From assembly GCA_035968315.1 (NCBI GenBank), contig JAVYIN010000005.1, positions 1,037,501 to 1,088,447 on the forward strand: a stretch of 50,947 bases of DNA. The letters run 5' to 3'. Shown here piece by piece: positions 1-22,837 of the stretch (position 1 is its first letter; the number at the start of each line of letters is the position of its first letter). Below the pieces are notes generated by a model, which was not told the DNA's origin, made no database searches, and was given only the letters and a program-made list of their open reading frames with translations. This stretch comes from Nitrospira sp. (GTDB taxonomy: Bacteria > Nitrospirota > Nitrospiria > Nitrospirales > Nitrospiraceae). The position numbers were made by a program, and so were the translations under genes.

Positions 1-593
<593 letters not shown>

Positions 594-5837: not shown

Positions 5838-7412
5838 TCAGGCCACTTGCCGCTTTGACGCCTCATAGGTTGCCTCACCGGCCTGCACGGCTTTTTTCGG
5901 TTCCCGGCCCCGGACGCGATGCATTTTGTCCCTGGTGTGATAGGGCAACAGCCCTTCCAAGACGGCCGGCAGCTTGTCACAGGGCACATCCTCCATAATC
6001 TTGATGGCCAGTTTCGGATCGGGCCCTGACCGCCCGCCGACGAAAATATCCACCGCCTCGACGACTTTTCCGTCGATCTTGGCCTTCTTCCCCAAGAATC
6101 CGACATCCGCGACCAGGTGATTGCCGCAACTGGCCGGACATCCTGACCAGTGCATGGTGATGGGCTTCAGCGCTCCGCTAAGCCGTCCCTCCAGCGCATT
6201 GGCCACCTCAACGGCCCGGCTCTTGGTTTCAATCACCGCCAGGTTGCAATAGTCGTTGCCGACACAACTCACCAGTCCCCGATAGAGCGCCGAGGGATTG
6301 TACGCGAACTGCTTCAGCAGCGGCTCTTCCGCCAGTTCGCCGATCTTCCTGTCGCTGATGTTCGTCACGATCAGCGCCTGCCCCGGAGTGATGCGCACTT
6401 CTCCGGTCCCGTACTTCTCGGCCAGGCTGAGAATCTTCACCAGATCATCCGCCTTCAGGCGCCCCACCAGCACTTTCAGCCCGACGTAGTTCATTCCCCG
6501 TTGCCGTTGACGAAAAATCCCGACGTGATCGGCCTCGCCCATCTTCCGCGCATCGGCGCCGGCCGGCGCCAGGCGCTTGCCGACCCGGGCTTCGACTTCG
6601 GCTCGGAACTTGGCCCCCCCCCAGTCCTCGATCAAAAACGCGAGCCGCGCCTGCGTGCGATTCTCCCGCGGCCCGTGATCCCGGTAGATCTCCAGCACCG
6701 CACGGCACAGGTCCAGTGCGTCGGCCGGATTGACGAAGACATCCAGCGGACTCGCAATCCGGTAGCCTCCCGATCCAAGCTTCCCGCCCACCAGCACATT
6801 GAACCCGAGGCACCGGTCATGCCCCAAATCGTAGTAGGCCGGAATCAGCGCCAGATCCTGCGTCTCCATGTGCACGCAGTTGTGCGGACAGCCCGTGACC
6901 GCCACGTTGAGCTTCCGCGGCAAATTGGAATAGGCCGGATTGCCGAGGATGTCGTCGTTGATCGCCCGTACGAGCCCGGACGTTTCAACCACCTCGTCGG
7001 GGCTCAGTCCGGCAACCGGGCATGTCATCACGTTTCGCACGTTATCCATGCCCGTTTGCAGCGACGTGAGCCCCACCGCCTCCATCTTGGCAAACACCGC
7101 CGGCACATCCTCGATCGTGATGTGCCGGAGCTGGATTTGCTGTCTCGTCGTCAGATCGAGCAGACCATTGCCATACGTGGAGGCAATCTCGGCCAGCGCC
7201 CGCAATTGATACGTGGTCGCATGCCCGCCGGGAATCCTGACCCGCACCATGAAGAACCCCGGCGTCGGATTGCGCAAGAACAGGCCATACCACTTGAGCC
7301 GCTGGACATCGCCCTCGGAAATCGACTCCCATCCCGTCGTCGCATAGCGGGCAATCATCTCCCCCACGGCCAATCCATCGCGCTCGGTCTTTATCGCCTC
7401 GATCTTGTTCAT
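5838..7412 (-). CDS. nirA: Assimilatory siroheme nitrite reductase
   Basis: A 524-residue nitrite/sulfite reductase family protein that would reduce nitrite by six electrons to ammonium, probably with ferredoxin. The start is the ATG at 7412, with GGAGG 7 nt upstream; a longer frame back to 7535 overlaps cynS and is not used. The C-x5-C...C-x3-C set that holds the 4Fe-4S/siroheme centre is complete: C383, C389 (SCVGNDYC), C425 and C429 (SGCPASC). Two ferredoxin-like half domains (about 45-110 and 300-360) match the family, and there is no diflavin domain. Context with nirC, cynS and glnA supports nitrogen assimilation rather than sulfite reduction. It is downstream of the nirC leader attenuators. 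Confidence 0.9.
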   Translation of the reverse strand: MNKIEAIKTERDGLAVGEMIARYATTGWESISEGDVQRLKWYGLFLRNPTPGFFMVRVRIPGGHATTYQLRALAEIASTYGNGLLDLTTRQQIQLRHITIEDVPAVFAKMEAVGLTSLQTGMDNVRNVMTCPVAGLSPDEVVETSGLVRAINDDILGNPAYSNLPRKLNVAVTGCPHNCVHMETQDLALIPAYYDLGHDRCLGFNVLVGGKLGSGGYRIASPLDVFVNPADALDLCRAVLEIYRDHGPRENRTQARLAFLIEDWGGAKFRAEVEARVGKRLAPAGADARKMGEADHVGIFRQRQRGMNYVGLKVLVGRLKADDLVKILSLAEKYGTGEVRITPGQALIVTNISDRKIGELAEEPLLKQFAYNPSALYRGLVSCVGNDYCNLAVIETKSRAVEVANALEGRLSGALKPITMHWSGCPASCGNHLVADVGFLGKKAKIDGKVVEAVDIFVGGRSGPDPKLAIKIMEDVPCDKLPAVLEGLLPYHTRDKMHRVRGREPKKAVQAGEATYEASKRQVA

Positions 7413-7503
7413 CCTGTCCTCCGTCCAGCCAGGCCTCTGTCTGTTATGAAGGGTGGGCTCCCTGCCCATCCCGCTCAGTCTGTCTCCTGCTGACGCGCTC
7501 TTC

Positions 7504-7944
7504 TTAGAATGTCTTGTACTCCAGCCACTTGCCATTCAGCGTGATCTTGCACCGGGCCTCGCCCTGGCTTCCGGTCACTTTTTCCATATCCAGCGTGAAA
7601 TCGATCGCGCTCATGATCCCGTCGCCGAACATCTCGTTCGCCTGTTCTCGCATCGAATCGCCATAGACCCCGATAATTTCCAGCAGCCGGTATTTGAAGG
7701 GATCCGTGGCGTTCGGGAAATCCGCTCGCACCGGAAACCGGCTCAACGACGCGGTTAACTCGTCATCCAGCCCCAACAGATCGCCGACTTTTCTGGCTTC
7801 GTCGGCCGCAAGCTTGTGATTACCCTGCAGCGCGGCCGCCACAAAAGTCGGGTTCTTGCCCACCACTTTGGCCACCTCGGCAATCGTCACCTTCTTGGCC
7901 AGCCGCTTCTCCTTAATCGCCTTCCGAATGTCATCCTTCGACAT
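7504..7944 (-). CDS. cynS: Cyanate hydratase (cyanase)
   Basis: A 146-residue cyanase, full length for the family. It converts cyanate and bicarbonate to carbamate, which decays to ammonium and CO2. The N-terminal helix-turn-helix-like domain covers residues 1-75. The catalytic residues R86, E89 and S112 are all present, in YRLLEIIGVYG and DGIMSAIDF. AAGGAGAG precedes the ATG. It sits between nirC and nirA, 48 nt after nirC and 91 nt before nirA, so the three genes form an operon supplying ammonium from nitrite and cyanate. Cyanate use by Nitrospira has been reported, and this gene fits that. Confidence 0.96.
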   Translation of the reverse strand: MSKDDIRKAIKEKRLAKKVTIAEVAKVVGKNPTFVAAALQGNHKLAADEARKVGDLLGLDDELTASLSRFPVRADFPNATDPFKYRLLEIIGVYGDSMREQANEMFGDGIMSAIDFTLDMEKVTGSQGEARCKITLNGKWLEYKTF

Positions 7945-7992: not shown

Positions 7993-8823
7993 TTACGACC
8001 GCGCCACCACCGGCGATACCGGCACCGCCACCGGGGCGGCCTCCACCTCCGCGACTCGATAGGGGCTCACCAGCCAGTAGAGCCCTCCGACAAACAATCC
8101 GCCGCCCACGACATTGCCCAGGACCACGAACAGCTGGTTGTACCAAAACCCGCCCCAGCTGATGCCCGCCCCATGCGGAAGGAACAAGGCCATCCCCAAC
8201 AACGATTGATTGGCGATGCTATGCTCAAACCCCGTTCCGATGAACGCGAAGAGGCACCAGAAGATCAGCAGGATTTTTGCCGCGTCGTTGCTGGTCCGGC
8301 CGGACATCCAGACCGCGAGGCAGATCAGCCAGTTGCAAAGAATGCCTCGGATGAACAATTCCCAGGCCGGCAGCGACATTTTCGCGGCCGCCACTGACCC
8401 GAGGAATTCCGCCGCCGGCCCCTTCGCAAAGACACCGGACTCCGCGATCAGCCAGGCCAGCGCCAGCGACCCGATCACATTGCCGATCCATGACCAGACA
8501 TTGAGTCCGATCACCTGCGGCCAGCTCACACTGCGGGAGAGTCCCCCGATCGCCCCCACCATGTTGTTGCCCGTAAAGAGCTCGGACCCGGCAAACATGA
8601 CCAAGGTGAGCGCAATGCCGAACGAGGCCCCCATGACCAGCTTCACAACCGGCGATCCCGCCGCCACCAACGGCCCGCCGAGGCTGAATATCAACGCGAT
8701 GCCGAATCCGAGATAGACGCCGGCCATCGCCGACAACAGCAGATATCCGCCCGGTGCCTGGTTCAGAAACCCGACTTTCAGTTTCGCCAGATCGGCGATT
8801 CGTTGATGATCTGCGAGATGCAT
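7993..8823 (-). CDS. nirC: Formate/nitrite transporter family channel
   Basis: A 276-residue FNT-family inner membrane protein with about six membrane segments. Family signatures are SELFTGNNM (the first half-helix loop) and NQLFVVLGNVVGGG near the end. The start is the ATG at 8823, preceded by AAGGAGGAG; the open frame continues upstream to 9003, but that part is the attenuator leader and is not coding. Being first in an operon with cynS and nirA, it most likely imports nitrite. Formate or cyanate cannot be excluded. The C-terminal ~20 residues are Ala/Val/Pro-rich. Confidence 0.9.
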   Translation of the reverse strand: MHLADHQRIADLAKLKVGFLNQAPGGYLLLSAMAGVYLGFGIALIFSLGGPLVAAGSPVVKLVMGASFGIALTLVMFAGSELFTGNNMVGAIGGLSRSVSWPQVIGLNVWSWIGNVIGSLALAWLIAESGVFAKGPAAEFLGSVAAAKMSLPAWELFIRGILCNWLICLAVWMSGRTSNDAAKILLIFWCLFAFIGTGFEHSIANQSLLGMALFLPHGAGISWGGFWYNQLFVVLGNVVGGGLFVGGLYWLVSPYRVAEVEAAPVAVPVSPVVARS

Positions 8824-8873: not shown

Positions 8874-8921
8874 ACAAAGGCGTCCTTATTCCCGCCAGGG
8901 AACAAGGACGCCTTTGTCCTT
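8874..8921 (-). promoter_or_regulatory. Second ANTAR-type hairpin and overlapping terminator-like stem in the nirC leader
   Basis: Minus strand: stem AAGGAC/GTCCTT closes the hexaloop AAAGGC at 8921-8904, with A1 and G4. Its loop and 3' arm also form the 5' arm (8917-8898) of a competing 20-bp stem whose 3' arm is 8893-8874, with one G-U pair and the loop TGGC. The tract after the long stem (GTTATT) is poor in T, so termination would be weaker than at the first unit. The expected upstream partner hairpin is only represented by a GC-rich stem at about 8945-8968 with a GAGC tetraloop, without the A1/G4 loop. Confidence 0.6.
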
Positions 8922-8984
8922 CCGTTGAAACACTGTTGCGCCTTAGGCGGGACGGCTCCGTCTCGCCCGGCACGCTGAAAATAA

Positions 8985-9072
8985 AAAGGCGCCCGCCATT
9001 CATTCCTGAATGACGGACGCCTTTGTCCGTTTCCTGTCTCGCATGGACGTTATCGAAGCGCCATTGCCTCGA
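8985..9072 (-). promoter_or_regulatory. ANTAR-type two-hairpin antiterminator with overlapping terminator, nirC leader
   Basis: Minus strand, in order. P1 is TCGAGGC/GCTTCGA with the hexaloop AATGGC (9072-9053). A 22-nt linker follows. P2 is ACGGAC/GTCCGT with the hexaloop AAAGGC (9030-9013). The P2 loop and 3' arm are also part of the 5' arm (9024-9008) of a 17-bp terminator stem whose 3' arm is 9001-8985, with two G-U pairs and the loop AGGAAT, followed by TTATTTT. P2 and the terminator exclude each other. Both loops carry A at position 1 and G at position 4, the hallmark of RNAs bound by ANTAR antiterminators. It should gate nirC-cynS-nirA. Confidence 0.8.
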
Positions 9073-9090
9073 CCCTGTCCATTATTGGGA

Positions 9091-9120
9091 GATGTACCAC
9101 AGCTCCCGGAAACCCGTCAA
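9091..9120 (-). promoter_or_regulatory. Candidate nirC-cynS-nirA promoter
   Basis: Minus strand: -35 TTGACG (9120-9115), an 18-nt spacer, and the -10 TACATC (9096-9091) preceded by TG one base upstream (an extended -10). The predicted start near 9084 is about 12 nt before hairpin P1 of the attenuator. The layout matches the promoter before the attenuator at 18542-18639. Read-through from glnA is also possible, as no terminator is seen between the glnA stop and this site. Confidence 0.5.
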
Positions 9121-9148: not shown

Positions 9149-10558
9149 CTAAATGTCGTAGTACAGATAGAACTCGTACGGGTGCGGCCGCAACCGCATC
9201 GTATCGACTTCCTTGGTCCGCTTATAGCTGATCCAGGCCTCGATCAGATCTTCAGAGAAGACCCCGCCCTTGAGCAGGAACTGATGGTCCTTCTCCAGGT
9301 TGTTGAGCGACTCGTCCAGGCTGCCTGGCATGGTCCTGATCTTGGCCATTTCCTTGGCCTCGAGATCGTACAGATCCTTCTCCGCCGGCTCGCCCGGGAC
9401 AATCTTGTTTTCGATCCCGTCCAGACCCGCCATCAACATGGCGGCGAAGGCGAGATAGGGATTGGCGCCGGGATCCGGGAAACGGACTTCGATCCGCTTC
9501 GCCTTGGGGCTCGGCGAGTACATCGGGATGCGGATGCCGGCCGACCGGTTCCGGCTGGAGTACGCCAGCAACACCGGGGCTTCAAATCCCGGCGTCAACC
9601 GCTTGTACGAGTTGGTCGTCGGGTTGGTGAACGCAGCCAAGGCCGGCGCGTGCTTCAGAATGCCGCCGATGTAATGCAGGCACATCTGTGACACACCCGC
9701 ATACTCCTTGCCCGCAAACAACGGCTTGCCATCCTTCCAGATGCTCTGGTGGGTGTGCATGCCGGACCCGTTATCGCCGAAAATCGGCTTCGGCATGAAC
9801 GTCGCCGTCTTGCCGTGGCGGCGCGCGACATTCTTGACGATGTACTTGTACATCATCATCTTGTCGGCGGTCCGCACCAGCGAATCGAAGCGGATATCGA
9901 TTTCCGCCTGGCCCGCCGTGGCCACTTCATGATGATGCTTCTCAATCGCGATGCCGGCCTTCTCCATTTCGAGCACCATTTCAGTCCGGATATCCTGCTG
10001 GGTATCCGTCGGCGCCACCGGGAAATAGCCTTCCTTGCTGCGGATCTTTCCGCCCAGGTTGAGGCCTTCCTGGCCCATATTCCACACGCCCTCTTCGGAA
10101 TCGATGAAGTAGTAGCCGCTGTGGTTGGTCTGATCGTACCGCGCCTGATCGAAAATGAAGAACTCGGCTTCCGGCCCCCAATAGGAGGTATCGCCGATCT
10201 TCGTGCTCTGCAGATACTTCTCCGCCTTCTGCGCGATATAGCGCGGATCGCGATCGTAGGTTTCCCTGGTGATCGGATCGACCACGTTGCCGATCAGGCT
10301 CAAGGTCGGCACCGCGCAAAACGGATCCATGCAGGCGGTCGCAGGATCGGGCACCACGAGCATGTCGCTGTTGTTGATCGCCTTCCAGCCGCGGATCGAG
10401 GAGCCATCGAGGCCCGACCCGTCCTTGAACAACCCTTCCGTCAACTCGCCGATCGGAATGGTAAAATGCTGCCATGTGCCGATCAGATCCACAAACTTCA
10501 AGTCCACGGCTTGAACTTTGTTCTTCTTCGCATACTCTAACACTTCACGAACGTTCAT
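9149..10558 (-). CDS. glnA: Glutamine synthetase type I
   Basis: A 469-residue GSI enzyme that makes glutamine from glutamate, ammonium and ATP. The length and motifs are standard: the N-terminal beta-grasp ([20 protein letters not shown]), [16 protein letters not shown], and NRSAGIRIP. Tyr397, in [11 protein letters not shown], is at the position adenylylated by GlnE in enteric bacteria, so covalent control of the beta-type enzyme is likely. No glnE is in the window. GGAGGAG precedes the ATG. glnD ends only 52 nt upstream, so glnA probably also receives transcripts from the amtB-PII-glnD genes. Confidence 0.97.
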
Positions 10559-10610: not shown

Positions 10611-13693
<3,083 letters not shown>

Positions 13694-13754: not shown

Positions 13755-15131
13755 CTATGAGTAGGCTCGTTCGTTGTGTTGGCTCAAATCCAATCCGGTT
13801 GACTCTTCTTCCGGCTCCACACGAAGTGGCGTGATCCACCCGACAATCTTCAACAACGCAAAAGTTCCGACCCCGGAAAATACCGCCACGACGATCACGG
13901 TCAAGAACTGCACACCCAACAGAGACGGATTGCCGAACAATAATCCGTCGGCCCCCCCCGCATTGATCGCCTTGCTGGCAAACAACCCCGTCGCGAGAAT
14001 TCCGCACACCCCGCCCACGCCGTGGATTCCCACGACATCAAGGGAGTCATCATAGCCGAATTTCCCCTTCCACACAATTGCGAAATAGCACGCCAGGCCA
14101 GCGATTGCGCCGATCACCAACGCCGGAAACGGGCCAATATACCCGGACGCCGGCGTCACCGTCGCAAGGCCCGCCACGGCGCCGCTCGCCACGCCGAGCA
14201 CCGTCGGTTTTCCGCGATGCACCCACTCCACCACACACCAGACAACCGCGGCCATACAGGCGGCGGCATGCGTCGCCACAATCGCCGAGGCGGCCACACC
14301 GTTGGCGCCCAGCGCGCTGCCGCCGTTAAATCCAAACCACCCGAACCAGAGCAACCCCGCGCCCAGGAGCGTCATGGGAAGATTATGGGGCCCCATATAA
14401 TCGCTCCCATACCCCCGCCGCTTGCCCAGCACAATGGCGCACACCAAGGCCGCCACGCCTGAGCTGATATGAATCACCGCGCCACCGGCAAAATCCAGGG
14501 CGCCCATCTTGGCGAGCCACCCGCCCCCCCACATCCAATGCGCGAGCGGCACGTAGACCACGATGGACCACAGGGCTGAAAACAGCAGCATCGCGCTAAA
14601 CCGCTTGCGTTCCGCAAAAGCGCCCGCGATCAGCGCCGGGGTAATCGCCGCAAACATCATTTGAAACAGGAAAAAGACGGTATGCGGGATCGTCGGCCCG
14701 TAGACCGGATGCGGCTCCGCCCCAACCCCGCTCAACCCGGCCCATTCCAGCCCGCCGATGATTCCTCCGCGATCAGGACCAAAGGCCAAGCTGTACCCAA
14801 AAACAATCCACAGCAGACTGACCACGCTCAGGATCACAAAGCTCTGCATGATCGTCCCCAGCACATTTTTGCTCCGGACCAGCCCGCCGTAAAAGAGGGC
14901 CAAGCCCGGCACCAGCATCAGCAATACCAGCGCCGATGACATGAGCATCCATGCCGTATCGCCGGTATCGACCTTGAGCGCCGCCGATCCGCCGGGGTCC
15001 TGCGCCATGGAGACGCCCTCAAATAGGACCGCCAGAATCCCTAAGAACAGAGCCGCCCTGCTGAGACCGCCGGCATTCCGTACCGGCTGATACCGACTGC
15101 CGCCATTGCCATCTCGTGCCTGATCAATCAC
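13755..15131 (-). CDS. amtB: Ammonium transporter (second of tandem pair)
   Basis: A 458-residue Amt/Rh-family channel. I choose the GTG at 15131 because GGAGGAGGA lies just upstream; a GTG at 15158 in the same frame lacks an SD. A signal-like first helix (about residues 22-42) is followed by 11 membrane helices. The twin pore histidines are H221 (DFAGGAVIHISSG) and H370 (VVGIHGVGG). The tail ends in GLDLSQHNERAYS, almost identical to the tail of the neighbouring Amt and typical of PII-regulated channels. It starts 32 nt after the upstream amtB stop. Confidence 0.94.
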   Translation of the reverse strand: MIDQARDGNGGSRYQPVRNAGGLSRAALFLGILAVLFEGVSMAQDPGGSAALKVDTGDTAWMLMSSALVLLMLVPGLALFYGGLVRSKNVLGTIMQSFVILSVVSLLWIVFGYSLAFGPDRGGIIGGLEWAGLSGVGAEPHPVYGPTIPHTVFFLFQMMFAAITPALIAGAFAERKRFSAMLLFSALWSIVVYVPLAHWMWGGGWLAKMGALDFAGGAVIHISSGVAALVCAIVLGKRRGYGSDYMGPHNLPMTLLGAGLLWFGWFGFNGGSALGANGVAASAIVATHAAACMAAVVWCVVEWVHRGKPTVLGVASGAVAGLATVTPASGYIGPFPALVIGAIAGLACYFAIVWKGKFGYDDSLDVVGIHGVGGVCGILATGLFASKAINAGGADGLLFGNPSLLGVQFLTVIVVAVFSGVGTFALLKIVGWITPLRVEPEEESTGLDLSQHNERAYS

Positions 15132-15163
15132 TGTGTCCTCCTCCGCTACACACACCACACACG

Positions 15164-16546
15164 CTACGAATAGGCTCGTTCGTCGTGCTGACTCAGATCC
15201 AAGCCCATTCGCTCCTCTTCCTCGCTCACACTCAACCCCATCAGCCTATCGAGCACTTTCAAAATCACGACCGTTGCGATGAACGCAAATCCCACAGAGA
15301 TCACCACAGCCAGCGCTTGAATGCCGAGTTGGCCGGGATTGCCAAAGAACAACCCATCGGCACCGGCCGCATTGATGGCCTTCGAGGCAAAGAGCCCCGT
15401 CGCCAAGGCTCCCCACACACCGCCCACGCCGTGAATCCCCACCACATCGAGGGCATCGTCGTAACCCAGCCGGGCTTTACACAGCACCGCCCCGTAGCAC
15501 AGGACTCCCGCCCCGAATCCGATTACCAGCGATGCCATGGGGCCGACGAATCCTGAAGCCGGTGTGATAGCCACCAGGCCGGCCACCGCGCCGCTCGCCG
15601 CACCGAGCACCGTGGGCTTCCCGCGATAGAGCCACTCCGCGAGCATCCAAGCCAGCGCGGCGGCGGCGGAAGCCGTATTGGTCACGACAAAGGCGCTGGT
15701 CGCCAACGCCCCGGACGCCACCGCGCTTCCGGCGTTGAACCCAAACCATCCGAACCAGAGCAGCGAGGCCCCCAAGACCGTCATGGGCAGATTATGCGGG
15801 GCCATGTGCTCCTTGCCATACCCCAAACGCCGCCGCATCACCATCACACAGGCCAATGCCGATGCGCCTGAGCTGATATGCACCACCGTCCCGCCGGCGA
15901 AGTCCAAGGCGCCGAGATTTCTGACCCATCCCCCGACCGCCCACACCCAATGGGCCAGCGGATCGTAGACCAGCGTGGCCCAAAGGAGGGTAAATACCAG
16001 AAAGCTGCTGAACTTCATCCGTTCCGCAATGGCCCCGGTGATGAGCGCCGGCGTGATCACGGCAAACATCATCTGAAACATCATGAACGCCTGATGCGGA
16101 ATCGTCGCCGCATAATCCGCGTTGGGCTCGAGCCCGACGCCCGTGAGACCGAGCCATTCCAGCCCGCCGATCATGTGTCCCTTATCCGGCCCGAAAGCCA
16201 GACTATAGCCCCACAACACCCACTGCACACTGATCACACAGAGGATGATAAAGCTCTGCATGATCGTGCCCAACGCATTCTTCGACCGCACCATGCCGCC
16301 ATAAAAGAGCGCCAAGCCCGGCGCCGTCATCGCCAGCACCATGGCGGTTGAAACCAACACCCAGGTGGTATCACCGGTATCGATTTTCGGCGCCACGGGA
16401 GGCGCGGCTGGTGTGGCCGCCCCATCTGACACCACCGGAACCGGCACTCCGGTTTCTTCCGCCCCAACTCCTGTGACTCCTGCCGCCAAAACAAGACACG
16501 ACAGGATCGACAGCATCCAACGCATGATACCGACGCGCGTGATCAT
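15164..16546 (-). CDS. amtB: Ammonium transporter (first of tandem pair)
   Basis: A 460-residue Amt-family channel with a cleavable-looking signal (residues 1-29) and a Pro/Ala/Val-rich linker before the first core helix. The pore motifs DFAGGTVVHISSG and VVGIHGVGG carry the twin histidines. The C-terminal tail is GLDLSQHDERAYS. It is clearly a paralogue of the adjacent amtB, but diverged over the whole length, so the duplication is not recent. GGAG precedes the ATG at 16546. It follows the porin by 23 nt. Confidence 0.94.
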   Translation of the reverse strand: MITRVGIMRWMLSILSCLVLAAGVTGVGAEETGVPVPVVSDGAATPAAPPVAPKIDTGDTTWVLVSTAMVLAMTAPGLALFYGGMVRSKNALGTIMQSFIILCVISVQWVLWGYSLAFGPDKGHMIGGLEWLGLTGVGLEPNADYAATIPHQAFMMFQMMFAVITPALITGAIAERMKFSSFLVFTLLWATLVYDPLAHWVWAVGGWVRNLGALDFAGGTVVHISSGASALACVMVMRRRLGYGKEHMAPHNLPMTVLGASLLWFGWFGFNAGSAVASGALATSAFVVTNTASAAAALAWMLAEWLYRGKPTVLGAASGAVAGLVAITPASGFVGPMASLVIGFGAGVLCYGAVLCKARLGYDDALDVVGIHGVGGVWGALATGLFASKAINAAGADGLFFGNPGQLGIQALAVVISVGFAFIATVVILKVLDRLMGLSVSEEEERMGLDLSQHDERAYS

Positions 16547-16569: not shown

Positions 16570-17907
16570 TTAGAACAGGTACACGACTTGGAACGACAAG
16601 GTTTCCTGGTTGTTGGTTCGCTCATTCCCATTGAGAAACACATTCTTATTCGAATGGTCATACCGGAATTCCGCCCGCGTGATCAGGGAAGGCACCGGCT
16701 TGTACTGAAGCGTATAGGTCGTCTCCCAAAGGGTTTGAGCCACGGCCGTCGCCGCCGCAGATGCGGTCGCACCAGCGCAGGTATTCCACCCACCTGGAGC
16801 ACCGGTAAACGCACCGACCGACCCCGCCACAACTCCGGTACAAGCCCTGGCCCCACCCGCATCCTCAAAGATCTCGCCCCGGAGCCGCATGCTCCATTGA
16901 TCATCGAAGTCATGGAGGTAATAGGCGCCTATTCCATTCCACCGGGCATTCTTTCCCGTCTGCCCCGCCACAAGGTTGGCGTTCGCTTCATTCGCATAGT
17001 ACGGCTCCAGGATGATCGTGTCTTGACTGGTGGCTTTAAACGTAATGATGGATCCCACGACTGTGCGTTGAGCGCTGGCATTTGTGCCCGCTCCCGAAAC
17101 GACCCCACCGACGGTATTGGATTGCTCCGGTCCGACGGACCCATAGAAATTCACCCCAAATCGTTCATGCGGGGTGATCGCCACGAGCCATTCGACTGTC
17201 TTGCCTTTATTGTTATCGTCGACATTGTCCCATCCGTTCACTACCCCCACGGAGGCCGTGACGACTGGATTGAAGGTATAAGTGAATCGAATGCCGGTCG
17301 TTGTGAAGGCTTGTCCGAGACCGAACATGAAGGTTCTGGAAAAGTTCGGATTTTCCCAGCTATTGATCACCTCATAGCCGATCAGCGTGTTGATCTTCCC
17401 CGCTTGCACTTTCAGGCCGTTGCCGACCGGAAGAATGTACTCGGCATAGAGTTCTTGAAAATCCATTTCGGCGCCGGCCACACCTGGTTGGTAGTTGGTT
17501 CTGGCGCGCGTGACGCGCGCATCCGGCCCGAAATTCAACCGCGCACGGAACCCCGCGCGATCAAGGGCGCTTCCCCCTGCGTCGGCAGGCCGCTCCAGCA
17601 TGAGCTGCGCCATATGCGGCATGAACGAACTCGCGTTCGTATCAAAGATGTGCAGTTGATTGAGGTTGGTACTCGGATTATTGAAGTTATGGGTATAGGC
17701 GACATCCACAAATCCTGACACCTTGAATCCCAGTGTCTTCCACAGCGATGGCGCCTCCGCTTTTTTCTCAAGCGCCTCCAGACGCTCCTGAACGGTGGGC
17801 CCCGCCGCTGGCGCAGATGCGGGCGGCACCTGCGCCAACACAGAGTGGCTGCCGACTAGCGACACCCACGCACACATTCCAATTCCGATCACACTGCGTA
17901 CTGACAT
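16570..17907 (-). CDS. Outer membrane beta-barrel porin
   Basis: A 445-residue outer membrane protein. The signal peptide ends at about A25 (SHSVLA-Q). A short heptad-like stretch (VQERLEALEKKAE) follows, then a series of amphipathic strands, ending in a terminal phenylalanine (FQVVYLF) as needed for barrel insertion. It resembles the OmpL-like putative porin-2 family. Just upstream of two ammonium transporters, it may let ammonium or another small solute across the outer membrane; that is inference. GGAGG precedes the ATG. Confidence 0.8.
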   Translation of the reverse strand: MSVRSVIGIGMCAWVSLVGSHSVLAQVPPASAPAAGPTVQERLEALEKKAEAPSLWKTLGFKVSGFVDVAYTHNFNNPSTNLNQLHIFDTNASSFMPHMAQLMLERPADAGGSALDRAGFRARLNFGPDARVTRARTNYQPGVAGAEMDFQELYAEYILPVGNGLKVQAGKINTLIGYEVINSWENPNFSRTFMFGLGQAFTTTGIRFTYTFNPVVTASVGVVNGWDNVDDNNKGKTVEWLVAITPHERFGVNFYGSVGPEQSNTVGGVVSGAGTNASAQRTVVGSIITFKATSQDTIILEPYYANEANANLVAGQTGKNARWNGIGAYYLHDFDDQWSMRLRGEIFEDAGGARACTGVVAGSVGAFTGAPGGWNTCAGATASAAATAVAQTLWETTYTLQYKPVPSLITRAEFRYDHSNKNVFLNGNERTNNQETLSFQVVYLF

Positions 17908-18081: not shown

Positions 18082-18432
18082 CTACTTCAACAGGTCTCGA
18101 TGCCCCAGGGCTAACAGTTCAGCCTCCGCAGCGGCTCGTGTATACATGCCCACGAGGCTCTCGCAGTGTTGAAGGAAATCGATTTTGGGAGAAACGACAC
18201 CCCTGGTGGTGGGGCCAGGATTCCTTCGATACTCTTCCGCCATAGCCGCCATCTCTTTCGCATGGAGACGAAGATGCGCCGCTTCTTTCTCATACCAAGT
18301 TGCCAGTGCCATGTGGTCATTTTTAGCAATCAGACCTTCGGGAGGATTCGCAATCACCGCGCAGGCGACAAACCCTATCAGTACCACCCCCCACAACATG
18401 CCACGCGTCATCCACTTGCCCTGAATTGTCAT
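18082..18432 (-). CDS. Small exported protein of unknown function at the head of the nitrogen cluster
   Basis: A 116-residue protein, not recognised. Residues 8-28 form a hydrophobic signal (MLWGVVLIGFVACAVIA); C24 is preceded by VA but the lipobox is weak. The mature part is helical and rich in Ala, Glu and His (H40, H53, H57), with one Cys at 89. It is the first gene after the ANTAR-type attenuator, 149 nt downstream of the terminator stem's 3' end. CGGAGGG precedes the ATG at 18432. The porin gene starts 174 nt further on, with no terminator seen between them. Confidence 0.65.
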   Translation of the reverse strand: MTIQGKWMTRGMLWGVVLIGFVACAVIANPPEGLIAKNDHMALATWYEKEAAHLRLHAKEMAAMAEEYRRNPGPTTRGVVSPKIDFLQHCESLVGMYTRAAAEAELLALGHRDLLK

Positions 18433-18541: not shown

Positions 18542-18639
18542 CAAAAAAAAACGCCCTCTCGCCCCGATAAGGAGCAGGAGGACGTCATTGTCCGGTTCCT
18601 GAAATCTGAAACCCCGCAGGAAACGTCGTTGTTTCCCGC
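18542..18639 (-). promoter_or_regulatory. ANTAR-type two-hairpin antiterminator with overlapping terminator, amt-cluster leader
   Basis: Minus strand, in order. P1 is a 9-bp stem GCGGGAAAC/GTTTCCTGC (one G-U) with the hexaloop AACGAC (18639-18616). P2 is GGAC/GTCC with the hexaloop AATGAC (18593-18580). The terminator is a 15-bp stem, arms 18585-18571 and 18565-18551, with three G-U pairs, one mismatch and the loop TTATC, followed by nine T. The P2 3' arm shares six bases with the terminator's 5' arm, so only one can form. Both hexaloops have A1 and G4. This should gate the genes for the exported protein, porin, amtB, amtB, PII, GlnD and perhaps GlnA. Confidence 0.82.
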
Positions 18640-18652
18640 GCGAATATTTGCT

Positions 18653-18682
18653 CTTCTAACACGCTTCAAGAAATTCTGTCAA
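18653..18682 (-). promoter_or_regulatory. Promoter of the amt-glnB-glnD-glnA cluster
   Basis: Minus strand: perfect -35 TTGACA (18682-18677), an 18-nt spacer, and the -10 TAGAAG (18658-18653) preceded by TG one base upstream (extended -10). The start near 18646 is 7-8 nt before hairpin P1 of the attenuator. No sigma-54 promoter could be found here, although rpoN is in the window. Confidence 0.6.
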
Positions 18683-19774: not shown

Positions 19775-21547
19775 CTAGCAATTGCGATAGCCGTTCGTGA
19801 TCGGCATCCGCCGATCCTTCCCGAACGCGCGATGGGTGATCTTGATTCCAATCGGCGCCTGGCGGCGTTTGTATTCACTGCGATCGACCAGCGCAATCAC
19901 CCTCGCCGCCACCGCCCGCTCAAAGCCCATCGCCACAATCTCTTCCAGAGACCGATCCTCTTCCACATAGGCCTTCAAAATGGGATCCAGGATCGGATAC
20001 GGCGGCAGGCTGTCTTCGTCTTTCTGGTTTGGCCGCAATTCCGCGGTGGGAGCCCGATCCAGCACGCGTTTGGGAATCACGGCCGAAGCCCCACGGGCAT
20101 TGCGCAGCCGTGACAGGTCATAGACCATCGTCTTCGGCACATCCTTGATCACCGCAAAGCCGCCGGCCATGTCGCCATAGAGCGTGGCATAGCCGACACT
20201 CATCTCGCTTTTGTTCCCAGTCGTTAGCACGAGATGGCCGAACTTATTTGAAAAGGCCATCAGAAAGTTCCCCCGAATGCGGGCCTGGAGATTTTCCTCC
20301 GTCGTATCGACAGGCCGGCCGGCAAAGGACGCCGCGAGCGACTGCCGACAGGCGTCGAAGACCGAAGTGATCGCGATCGTGTCGTACGCCATGTGGAGGC
20401 GGCGAGCCAACTCTGCCACATCCTCACCGCTCTCCTGAGAGGTGTAGGGTGAGGGCATGAACAGCCCCACGACGTTTTCGGCGCCGAGCGCATCAATCGC
20501 GATCACCGCCGTGAGCGCTGAGTCGATGCCCCCGCTCAAGCCGATGACGGCTTTTTTGAATCCATTCTTGCGGACATAGTCCTGCACGCCGAGCACGAGG
20601 GCGTCATAGACCTCTTCCAACTCTTCCCGTGGAGCCTGAAGAGACGGCACCACCCTGGCCCGCTTCGAGGGGGCCGGTAATTTCACCATCACCCGCTCAA
20701 CCACACTGGCCAACTTGCCCCCCAGCGCCTTGGCCCGCCGTTGCGCCATCCGCTGGCGAACCACCGCATCCACGTTCACATCGGCAACCAGAAAATCTTC
20801 TTGAAAGGCCTTTCCCCGTGCAATCACCGTCCCCGTCTGATCGAGCACAAGACTGTTCCCGTCGAACACCAATTCATCCTGCCCGCCGACCGTATTGGTG
20901 TAGGTCACAATCACCCCGTTCTCCCGCGCCCGCGTCGCCAGCATCTGCTCGCGAGTCCGGCTTTTTCCGATCTGAAACGGGGAGGCATTGATGTTGACGA
21001 TCACTTCCGCCCCGGCGGCGGCCAACAAGCGAGTCGGCCCGTCAGGGAACCAAATGTCTTCACAGATATTGATGCCGATCGTCGCCCCGCGAAGGGTCAG
21101 CAACGGCAGCGTCCGCCCAGGGTGAAAATACCGGCTCTCATCGAAAACGCCATAATTCGGGAGGATCCACTTGCTATAACTGGCAACCAGACCTCGTTCG
21201 TTCAACACAGCCGCAGCATTCGACAATTCATGCTGGCCCTCGGCGACCACAGGGCGACGGGTCGCCCTGTCGCTGGCCCGTCCTTGCCCGACATAGCCGA
21301 CCACGGCGAGCAGCCCCCGACAGTCCTTGGCAATCTCATCGAGCGCGCGCAGATTGTCCGCAATGAACCGCGGCTTCAGCAGCAAATCCTCCGGGGGATA
21401 TCCCGTCACCGCCAATTCCGGAAACGCCACGACATCGGCCTTGGCTTTGCGCGCCTCTTTGATCCAGGATTTGATCGCACGAGTATTCCCGGCGATATCA
21501 CCGACGGTGGGATTCATCTGGGCCATGGCCAGCCGAAGGATTTGCAT
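19775..21547 (-). CDS. nadE: Glutamine-dependent NAD+ synthetase
   Basis: A 590-residue two-domain enzyme that amidates deamido-NAD to NAD using glutamine nitrogen. The N-terminal nitrilase-type glutaminase domain has the triad E44 (FPEL), K126 (YSKWILP) and C162 (NICEDIWFP). The C-terminal synthetase domain carries the ATP-binding loop GLSGGIDSALTA. The length is usual for the glutamine-dependent form. It is the last gene of an aroB-ANTAR-nadE run, starting 27 nt after the regulator's stop. Confidence 0.95.
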   Translation of the reverse strand: MQILRLAMAQMNPTVGDIAGNTRAIKSWIKEARKAKADVVAFPELAVTGYPPEDLLLKPRFIADNLRALDEIAKDCRGLLAVVGYVGQGRASDRATRRPVVAEGQHELSNAAAVLNERGLVASYSKWILPNYGVFDESRYFHPGRTLPLLTLRGATIGINICEDIWFPDGPTRLLAAAGAEVIVNINASPFQIGKSRTREQMLATRARENGVIVTYTNTVGGQDELVFDGNSLVLDQTGTVIARGKAFQEDFLVADVNVDAVVRQRMAQRRAKALGGKLASVVERVMVKLPAPSKRARVVPSLQAPREELEEVYDALVLGVQDYVRKNGFKKAVIGLSGGIDSALTAVIAIDALGAENVVGLFMPSPYTSQESGEDVAELARRLHMAYDTIAITSVFDACRQSLAASFAGRPVDTTEENLQARIRGNFLMAFSNKFGHLVLTTGNKSEMSVGYATLYGDMAGGFAVIKDVPKTMVYDLSRLRNARGASAVIPKRVLDRAPTAELRPNQKDEDSLPPYPILDPILKAYVEEDRSLEEIVAMGFERAVAARVIALVDRSEYKRRQAPIGIKITHRAFGKDRRMPITNGYRNC

Positions 21548-21574: not shown

Positions 21575-22837
21575 CTACACACTACGCTTTTCGGCCCGCT
21601 CTTCGATATCGCCGGCAAGCAAAATCGCTTCGGCGATTTCACGCATGGACTTCCGCAAATCCATGCTCTGCCGCTGAATGAGTTTGAAGGCCTCTTCTTC
21701 TGTGAGCCGCTTGGATCGCATGAGGTACCCCTTGGCGCGATCTAAAAGTTTTCGCACGGCGAGGGCTTCCTGCATTTCAAAAGACTTTTCCAGCAAGGTG
21801 GTATGTTCAATGGAAATCGCCGCCTGATTGGCAATGGCTTGCATCAAGCGCACCTCTTCGGACGTAAAGCTGTGCGGAACCGACGTATAACTGTTGATCA
21901 CGCCGATGGCCTTGTCCCGCATCATCATCGGGACAGAGAGCAACGAACACAGGCCTTCCTTCGCGGCCAAATCAGGATACATATAATCCTGCTCTTTGGT
22001 CACGTCAGGCACAATGATCGGCCGCCGCTCCTGAACCACGCGTCCGCTGATACTCTGTCCGGTTTTGAGATGGGGCTTGCGCCGGTACTGCTCACTCAAA
22101 CTCTGAGTCGCCGCAATCTTGAGTTCTCCGGATACTTCGTCCAGCAGCATAATCGAGCAAATTTTCGACCCCAACATTTGAGCGGTCATTGTCACGATCA
22201 ATTGCAGCACGTCATCGATAATCCGGTTGGAGACAACCGTTTCAGACACCTGCGACAACGTCTCCAACTGCACGGCCTTTCTGCGCATTTGATCGTACAG
22301 CCTGGCATTCTCAATCGCACCGCCCACCTGATTGGCAATAGTGGTCAGCAGCGCCAACTCGTCCTCACGATACCGGCGCGCCCGCTTATGCTGCACATTG
22401 ATGACGCCGGTGACTTCCTTCTTGACGAGGATCGGCACCGACACGAATGCCTGATAGCGATCTTCCGGGAGGTTATTGAAAAACTTGAATCGCGAATCTT
22501 CGCTGGCGTTACTGGGGATCACGACACGGGTGCGCTCACGCGCCACCCACCCGGTAATACCTTCGCCTAAGCCGATGGTGATGCGGCCAATGAGACGAGG
22601 ATGGGGGTTTTTCGATGCCCGCAAGACCAACTCATCACGCCCCTCGGACAACAGATAGAGCAGGCACGCATCGGCTTTGGTCACTTCCACGACGACATCG
22701 ACGATATGCCGCAACACCGCCTCAAGATCCAGAGTATTGCTGATCGATTCACTGATGCGATGCAAGACATCCACTTCACGTGTTTTTTCTCGCAAGGCCT
22801 GCTCAAGTTGTGCGGAAGAGAGCTTTTTGCTTTCCAT
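21575..22837 (-). CDS. GAF-GAF-ANTAR antitermination regulator
   Basis: A 420-residue cytoplasmic regulator. After a short N-terminal helix come two GAF sensor domains (about 25-165 and 185-335; for example GRITIGLGEGITGWVARE and SISGRVVQERRPIIVPDV). A C-terminal ANTAR domain follows (about 355-412) with the family pattern LLDRAKGYLM...LTEEEAFKLIQRQSM...MREIAEAIL. ANTAR proteins bind paired hexaloop hairpins and stop terminators from forming. No histidine kinase or receiver domain is present, so the signal should be a small ligand or redox state felt by the GAF domains. It lies between aroB and nadE, about 3 kb from the nitrogen cluster whose leaders carry matching hairpins. Confidence 0.9.
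   Translation of the reverse strand: MESKKLSSAQLEQALREKTREVDVLHRISESISNTLDLEAVLRHIVDVVVEVTKADACLLYLLSEGRDELVLRASKNPHPRLIGRITIGLGEGITGWVARERTRVVIPSNASEDSRFKFFNNLPEDRYQAFVSVPILVKKEVTGVINVQHKRARRYREDELALLTTIANQVGGAIENARLYDQMRRKAVQLETLSQVSETVVSNRIIDDVLQLIVTMTAQMLGSKICSIMLLDEVSGELKIAATQSLSEQYRRKPHLKTGQSISGRVVQERRPIIVPDVTKEQDYMYPDLAAKEGLCSLLSVPMMMRDKAIGVINSYTSVPHSFTSEEVRLMQAIANQAAISIEHTTLLEKSFEMQEALAVRKLLDRAKGYLMRSKRLTEEEAFKLIQRQSMDLRKSMREIAEAILLAGDIEERAEKRSV

Follow-up and report, generated by a model that had tools for sequence, protein, structure and literature searches.

Probable ANTAR-target leaders upstream of nitrogen-assimilation genes in Nitrospira and their loss from most AmoA-positive relatives in the genus

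Introduction

We analyzed a 50,947-nucleotide stretch of a Nitrospira sp. genome (assembly GCA_035968315.1, contig JAVYIN010000005.1, positions 1,037,501 to 1,088,447; called the window in what follows and numbered from its first letter) and, within it, the leader of an operon for a porin, two ammonium transporters (Amt), the PII protein, its uridylyltransferase GlnD and glutamine synthetase. We consider it very likely that this leader (leader 1) is an ANTAR-target RNA that attenuates the transcription of porin-amt-amt-glnK-glnD-glnA in the manner proposed below. A wider reading, which we favor with some reserve, is that a GAF-GAF-ANTAR protein, acting by antitermination on transcripts from sigma-70-type promoters, would be the master control of nitrogen assimilation in Nitrospirota, the role that NtrC and sigma-54 have in proteobacteria. 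On this wider reading, the evolution of complete ammonia oxidation (comammox) in the window's genus would have dismantled the ANTAR protein, the leaders, Amt, GlnD and the assimilation of nitrite and cyanate together, with glnK-glnA moving to an unregulated-looking promoter.

The leader of the porin-amt operon

All the parts of the attenuator that a sequence-only reading of this DNA had described are found on the minus strand (Table 1). The promoter (TTGACA, 18 nt, extended -10) is present at 18682-18653, with the TG of the extended -10 at 18661-18660 and a -10 TAGAAG (18658-18653) that matches TATAAT in 4/6 positions. The first hairpin, P1, with its AACGAC loop (18630-18625), has arms at 18640-18631 and 18624-18615 and a stem of 9-10 bp, where 9 bp had been claimed; the linker, claimed as 23 nt, is 22-23 nt by direct reading, and the second hairpin, P2, consists of GGAC (18593-18590), the AATGAC loop (18589-18584) and GTCC (18583-18580). 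The 5' arm of the terminator (ACGTCCTC, 18585-18578) is followed by the 3' arm (GAGGGCGT, 18558-18551) and nine T (18551-18543), and the six bases that P2 and the terminator were said to share can be read directly at 18585-18580. The genes behind the leader are those of the claimed amt-PII-glnD-glnA cluster, except that the cluster has two amt genes and, ahead of them, a 116-amino acid open reading frame (ORF) and a BBP2-type porin.

In the minimum-energy fold of leader 1, P1 and the terminator are formed and P2 is absent; the fold has a z of -5.6 and none of the shuffled sequences folds equally well. Where 0.00 exact copies of the P2 pattern GGACANNGNCGTCC would be expected in the window, there are three, each of them on the minus strand. 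A generic promoter scan and a terminator scan listed neither the promoter nor the terminator of leader 1, and a scan with Rfam at the gathering threshold gave no family there. Leader 1 has the features by which ANTAR targets are recognized: two stem-loops, each with a stem of 3 bp or more and a hexanucleotide loop, A at position 1 and G at position 4 (A1/G4) in both loops, stems kept by compensatory changes across the family, an overlap between P2 and the terminator, and an ANTAR protein in the same genome. On the comparative evidence the element can be assigned with high confidence to the ANTAR-target attenuators.

The two further P2 sites (9015-9028 and 8906-8919) lie outside the part that the earlier reading had treated, downstream of glnA and upstream of nirC-cynS-nirA. 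Leader 2 (9076-8978) has all the parts of an attenuator and a promoter of its own, and leader 3 (8970-8876) follows it in tandem. When the genome was searched with a covariance model of the element, R1, three clear elements were found, all within the window; the match at leader 1, which is itself in the R1 seed, covers 18578-18641 with 63 bits.

We propose that transcription would start at the sigma-70-type promoter, a few bases ahead of P1. By default the nascent RNA would fold the terminator by using the 3' arm of P2, and transcription would stop near 18543. An activated GAF-GAF-ANTAR dimer would hold P1 and P2 via their A1/G4 hexaloops; the held P2 would keep its 3' arm, no terminator would form and the operon would be transcribed. 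Such an antitermination mechanism is established for EutV (PMC3369931, PMC8934654). Leaders 2 and 3 would be served by the same GAF-GAF-ANTAR protein, so that one regulator would switch how ammonium, nitrite and cyanate (in relatives also urea) are taken up and assimilated. We infer both the RNA binding and the direction of control, which would be activation, and antitermination under nitrogen limitation is the natural reading.

Conservation of the leader and its gene context

R1 was built from 11 leaders, two of them from the window. The leaders that precede the porin-amt operon in other Nitrospira have the same parts, and R1 matches were found in 106/147 genomes of the window's family, with all 22 genera represented. 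The alignment of the 11 leaders was made without structure; in it 6 of the 14 pairs changed on both sides, and the observed values were not reached by shuffles. A larger alignment holds 71 distinct R1 matches from regions in about 20 genera and was fitted to R1, a bias towards the structure; there, 91.5% of the pair cells are standard, and in 174 cells both partners changed. The covariation score of 0.433 exceeds the 0.177 of shuffles (0/500 as high) and falls to ~0.04 when the partners are shifted by one column. The four inner pairs of P2 are invariant across the family alignment, and therefore only P1 and the outer P2 pairs inform on covariation. In the loops, counted from these same fitted rows, position 4 is G in 69/69 P1 and 71/71 P2 (100%), and position 1 is A in 65/69 P1 (94%) and 61/71 P2 (86%), with G in the remainder. 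The covariance search of homologous leaders that the sequence-only reading had proposed as a check thus recovers the element in about 22 genera; its stems covary, and A1 and G4 are close to fixed.

P2 loops of the form GATGAC or GAAGAC are seen in the nadE leaders of several genera (L142:4376, L130:6198, L151:4891, L138:3649, L163:5082 and also L136:2768; these are our own handles). The linkers across the family are mostly 16-28 nt long. A conserved hairpin within the linker was suspected and rejected, as the linkers are mostly unstructured (mean z -0.3).

Nitrogen-acquisition genes lie downstream of 65 of the 72 leaders whose surroundings were compared. The first recognized nitrogen gene is nadE (18 leaders), amt (14), nirC (11), an nrtABC-like transporter with cynS (11), urtA (7) or cynS (4); of the other leaders, six, arranged as tandem pairs, precede an SH3-like lipoprotein, and one is at a contig end. 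The lipoprotein is the only target class without an obvious nitrogen role (tandem leaders at L143:7119-7275, L153:3187-3387 and L159:13297-13450). A terminator overlapping P2 was found in 53/72 leaders and in 31 of 720 control positions (4%), and a sigma-70-type promoter just before P1, counted at a score of 10 or more, in 48/72 leaders compared with one in 360 control stretches. The commonest form of this promoter is TTGACA or TTGACG, 18 nt, TGn and a TA-rich element, and several of the promoter-less leaders are inner copies.

The earlier reading had placed the operon under attenuation rather than sigma-54/NtrC control, and this can be held in part. With a strict pattern, no sigma-54 -24/-12 consensus was found within 200 nt upstream of any of the 72 leaders. 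Yet rpoN is present in 108/109 good genomes and sigma-54 is therefore available, though the leaders appear not to use it.

Beyond the family, R1 matches in 68/296 genomes of the phylum, including 13 of a sister family (f2), and ANTAR proteins are found in 118/296; R1 is tuned to the window's family, and its absence farther out says little. In the inspected genomes of the sister family, the leaders lie between the ANTAR gene and nadE, or before a porin and urtA.

The GAF-GAF-ANTAR regulator

The gene of the GAF-GAF-ANTAR protein, 3 kb upstream of leader 1 and absent from the earlier reading, is the sole ANTAR gene in the genome. Its ANTAR domain was aligned to EutV (6wsh), NasR (4akk) and Rv1626 (1s8n), with the EutV residue numbering placed onto the chain by hand. 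Nine EutV residues are described in contact with RNA (PMC8934654); their counterparts in the window's protein are identical in five of nine positions (Arg142, Lys143, Lys149, Glu160 and Arg175), and two more changes are conservative (Lys147 to Arg and Tyr164 to Phe).

The AlphaFold model of the regulator shows a GAF domain, a coiled coil, a second GAF domain, a second coiled coil and a three-helix end, with a mean pLDDT of 79.8 and a pTM of 0.45. The first GAF domain resembles that of PtsP, the nitrogen-related enzyme I of the phosphotransferase system (3ci6, TM 0.80-0.85 by target), and NCBIfam gives the same resemblance. The signal of the regulator would most likely be nitrogen limitation, sensed via the GAF domains. 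PtsP GAF domains respond to glutamine, and a glutamine-type signal is a lead only.

Co-occurrence with ANTAR and loss in comammox genomes of the window's genus

Over the 147 family genomes, leader and ANTAR gene occur together in 98, the ANTAR gene only in 1, the leader only in 8 and neither in 40. Given the relatedness of the genomes, a Fisher test of this co-occurrence is not read as a probability. Six of the eight leader-only genomes are incomplete, and of two leader-only cases in the same genus, one (G033) was rejected as a spurious R1 match, with no terminator seen behind it and no operon. All 40 genomes with neither belong to the window's genus.

AmoA (PF02461) is present in 34 genomes of this genus, and ANTAR is absent from 34/34. 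In the other AmoA-positive genus (g9), 12/12 genomes with AmoA have ANTAR and 11/12 have the leader. The passages of Koch et al. (PMC6311188) on transporters give comammox clade A an Rh-type and clade B an Amt-type transporter. The AmoA-positive, ANTAR-less group matches clade A and g9 matches clade B, the clade names being our own assignment. An intact related Amt was found in 9/9 genomes with ANTAR and in 0/20 without it among 29 genomes of the window's genus, by a search that has more distant transporters beyond its reach.

In genomes with ANTAR the order of the locus is, with variations, pilQ-aroB-ANTAR-nadE-amt-glnK-glnD-glnA, and in three inspected ANTAR-less genomes it is pilQ-aroB-nadE-glnK-glnA-CBS; GlnD and nirC-cynS-nirA are missing from the inspected stretch of these three. 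Upstream of glnK they have TTGAGN-N17-TATGAT (L148 ~-150, L149 ~-173 and L150 ~-123 relative to glnK). This TATGAT lies in GGATGGGCTATGATG, which resembles the codons of the Amt GYD motif and may be a remnant of a lost amt. The sequence-only reading had named homologous leaders that lose the hexaloops while the genes are kept as evidence against it. When such cases were sought, leaders were found to be missing where ANTAR is missing, which fits the ANTAR model; in the three inspected genomes glnK and glnA are kept behind a plain promoter, and the set of amt, glnD, ANTAR and leader is gone as a whole.

One AmoA-positive genome, G019, holds residues 1-59 of the ANTAR protein together with fragments of amt, glnK and glnD (L147, G019:C50, 12790-16316). 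It also holds an orphan leader with a terminator and no gene close behind (L185, G019:C17, 10109-10175). On the nadE tree G019 branches off first within the main ANTAR-less clade (99/99), and two long-branched ANTAR-less rows are placed elsewhere. The ANTAR-less genomes are largely one clade on this tree, and the loss would therefore be one or a few events.

Relation to known systems

The dual-hexaloop ANTAR target was defined by Ramesh et al. (2012), who reported it, across diverse bacteria, upstream of genes for P-II, ammonium transporters and glutamine synthetase (PMC3369931), so that both this type of element and this type of target were already known. The eut leaders of Enterococcus faecalis, read by EutV (PMC3369931, PMC8934654), have in common with the leaders here two A1/G4 hexaloop hairpins and a P2 that overlaps an intrinsic terminator. 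They differ in the regulator, which is a phosphorylated response regulator in eut and presumably a GAF-GAF-ANTAR protein in Nitrospira, and in the targets, which in Nitrospira are ammonium, nitrite, cyanate, urea and glutamine genes. The predicted ANTAR regulons of Desulfotomaculum acetoxidans (PMC3369931) likewise have several leaders before nitrogen-metabolism genes in one genome, but in another phylum, with other gene sets and no tie to nitrification or to the loss of the system.

Like the leaders here, the consensus of the Rfam family P11 (RF00625) combines two A1/G4 hexaloops (AACGau and AAAGGC) and a ~20-nt linker with an overlapping terminator; aligned to L144:13783-13923, it also reads as having a sigma-54 promoter. 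The two nirC/nrt-type leader regions that were tested had P11 as their best Rfam match (E 5e-4 and 4e-5), although the P11 scores of the leaders, 19.9 to 30.1 bits, did not reach its gathering score of 70 bits. Longer stretches of six other leader loci gave no P11 match against Rfam, and the resemblance is therefore strongest for the nirC/nrt-type leaders. From this layout, P11 appears to be NalA, an ANTAR target filed as a free small RNA (sRNA), "Pseudomonas sRNA P11". NalA, the leader of nirBD in Pseudomonas, controls nitrite assimilation, a likeness to the context of the nirC leaders; its promoter is of the sigma-54/NtrC type and its reader is the ANTAR protein NasT, freed from NasS, whereas the Nitrospira leaders have a sigma-70-type promoter.

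The nitrogen-assimilation cluster of Nitrospira, with the same genes and the same contrast between canonical and comammox genomes, was described by Koch et al. (PMC6311188), in whose passages found by a term search the regulation of the cluster is not addressed. In line with the supposition of the sequence-only reading, no report of ANTAR control in Nitrospira was found in the open-licence literature searched, which did not cover Table S2 of the 2012 scan. Within that literature, the predicted Nitrospirota-wide ANTAR regulon and its dismantling in comammox are new.

Other explanations

One alternative is that ANTAR binding promotes termination, or that the short RNA left by termination has a role in trans, such as that of a sponge that titrates the ANTAR protein. 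The orphan leader of G019 would fit such a role, as would the filing of the similar P11 RNA as a free sRNA. Since P2 and the terminator share bases, a stabilized P2 should prevent termination; this, together with the 65 of 72 leaders upstream of nitrogen genes and with leader 1 having no overlap with a start codon, makes the alternative improbable. Another option is that the element is the ordinary intrinsic terminator of the nadE unit, with hairpins adjacent by coincidence, as nadE ends ~1.1 kb upstream on the same strand and a real terminator is present. However, leader 1 has a conserved promoter of its own directly before P1, the stems covary, the loops are near-fixed, and in other genera the element precedes nadE instead of following it, which leaves very little room for a coincidence. 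Still less probable is a leader read by another RNA-binding protein or ligand, for which a sub-threshold Rfam match to a PyrR site on the same strand (20.9 bits, E 0.5-0.7) could be put forward, but this is far under the gathering score of 54, no Rfam family reaches threshold on the leader, and the leader shares both its occurrence and its loss with the ANTAR gene.

The ANTAR reading of the leader is supported by the covariation, the near-fixed A1/G4, the terminator overlap and the co-occurrence with the ANTAR gene. Several points weigh against it. Two EutV contacts are changed in the window's ANTAR domain (Arg168 to Gln and Asn173 to Asp), leader 3 lacks a clean T run and its P1 is poor, and several nadE leaders have G at P2 loop position 1. 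Because one main clade accounts for the lack of ANTAR in the family, few independent events underlie the co-occurrence. Linkers of usually 16-28 nt are about twice as long as those of the eut leaders (5-12 nt), in which function was abolished or strongly reduced by a linker of 14 nt or an extension of 20 nt. The linker of leader 1 is outside the eut range, within the 2-25 nt used for actinobacteria and near that of P11, and long linkers therefore have precedent.

Features of the window

The coordinates are collected in Table 1. The 116-amino acid ORF between leader 1 and the porin has an N-terminal hydrophobic stretch and is conserved in four other Nitrospira contigs. The second porin paralogue of the genome (G000:C5:444753) was considered and set aside; it sits in a chemotaxis cluster and has no leader. 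In another genome (L144, G051:C43, 7599-9175) amt2 is apparently in two pieces. At the edge of the window (1-593, minus strand) there is a partial 16S rRNA gene.

Table 1. Leaders, genes and the presumed regulator in the window
Feature	Position	Strand	Basis
GAF-GAF-ANTAR regulator, presumed antiterminator	21575..22837	-	PF03861, E 3e-19
Glutamine-dependent NAD synthetase nadE	19775..21547	-	domain match; in other genera itself behind an ANTAR leader
Leader 1 promoter: -35 TTGACA 18682-18677, 18-nt spacer, TGn, TAGAAG	18653..18682	-	direct reading
Leader 1 P1, hexaloop AACGAC (A1, G4)	18615..18640	-	sequence; R1 match
Leader 1 P2, hexaloop AATGAC (A1, G4), putative antiterminator hairpin	18580..18593	-	sequence, P2 pattern count
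Leader 1 intrinsic terminator, nine T, 5' arm overlapping P2	18543..18586	-	-23.4 kcal/mol
116-aa ORF, first ORF after leader 1	18082..18432	-	ORF list; Pfam scan without match
BBP2-type outer-membrane porin	16570..17907	-	domain match
Ammonium transporter amt1	15164..16546	-	domain match
Ammonium transporter amt2	13755..15158	-	domain match
PII protein (glnK/glnB)	13292..13630	-	domain match
PII uridylyltransferase glnD	10611..13295	-	domain match
Glutamine synthetase glnA	9149..10558	-	domain match
Leader 2 promoter: TTGACG, 18 nt, TGn, TACATC	9091..9120	-	promoter scan
Leader 2 dual hairpin: P1 loop AATGGC, P2 loop AAAGGC	9013..9076	-	R1, 58.6 bits; also R1 seed
Leader 2 terminator overlapping P2, T-rich tail	8978..9024	-	-30.4 kcal/mol
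Leader 3, tandem copy: good P2 (AAAGGC), degenerate P1	8904..8970	-	R1, 23.8 bits, E 4e-5; non-seed
Leader 3, 12-bp perfect stem over P2, no clean T run	8876..8915	-	sequence
Nitrite transporter nirC (FNT family)	7993..8823	-	protein family match
Cyanase cynS	7504..7944	-	protein family match
Ferredoxin-nitrite reductase nirA	5838..7535	-	protein family match

Significance

The literature searched appears to contain no description of how nitrifying Nitrospira determine when nitrogen is assimilated, and with one regulator and its mapped RNA targets this control becomes testable. The loss of the circuit in the AmoA-positive genomes of the window's genus, together with its retention in g9, provides a genomic marker of a changed nitrogen economy in comammox.
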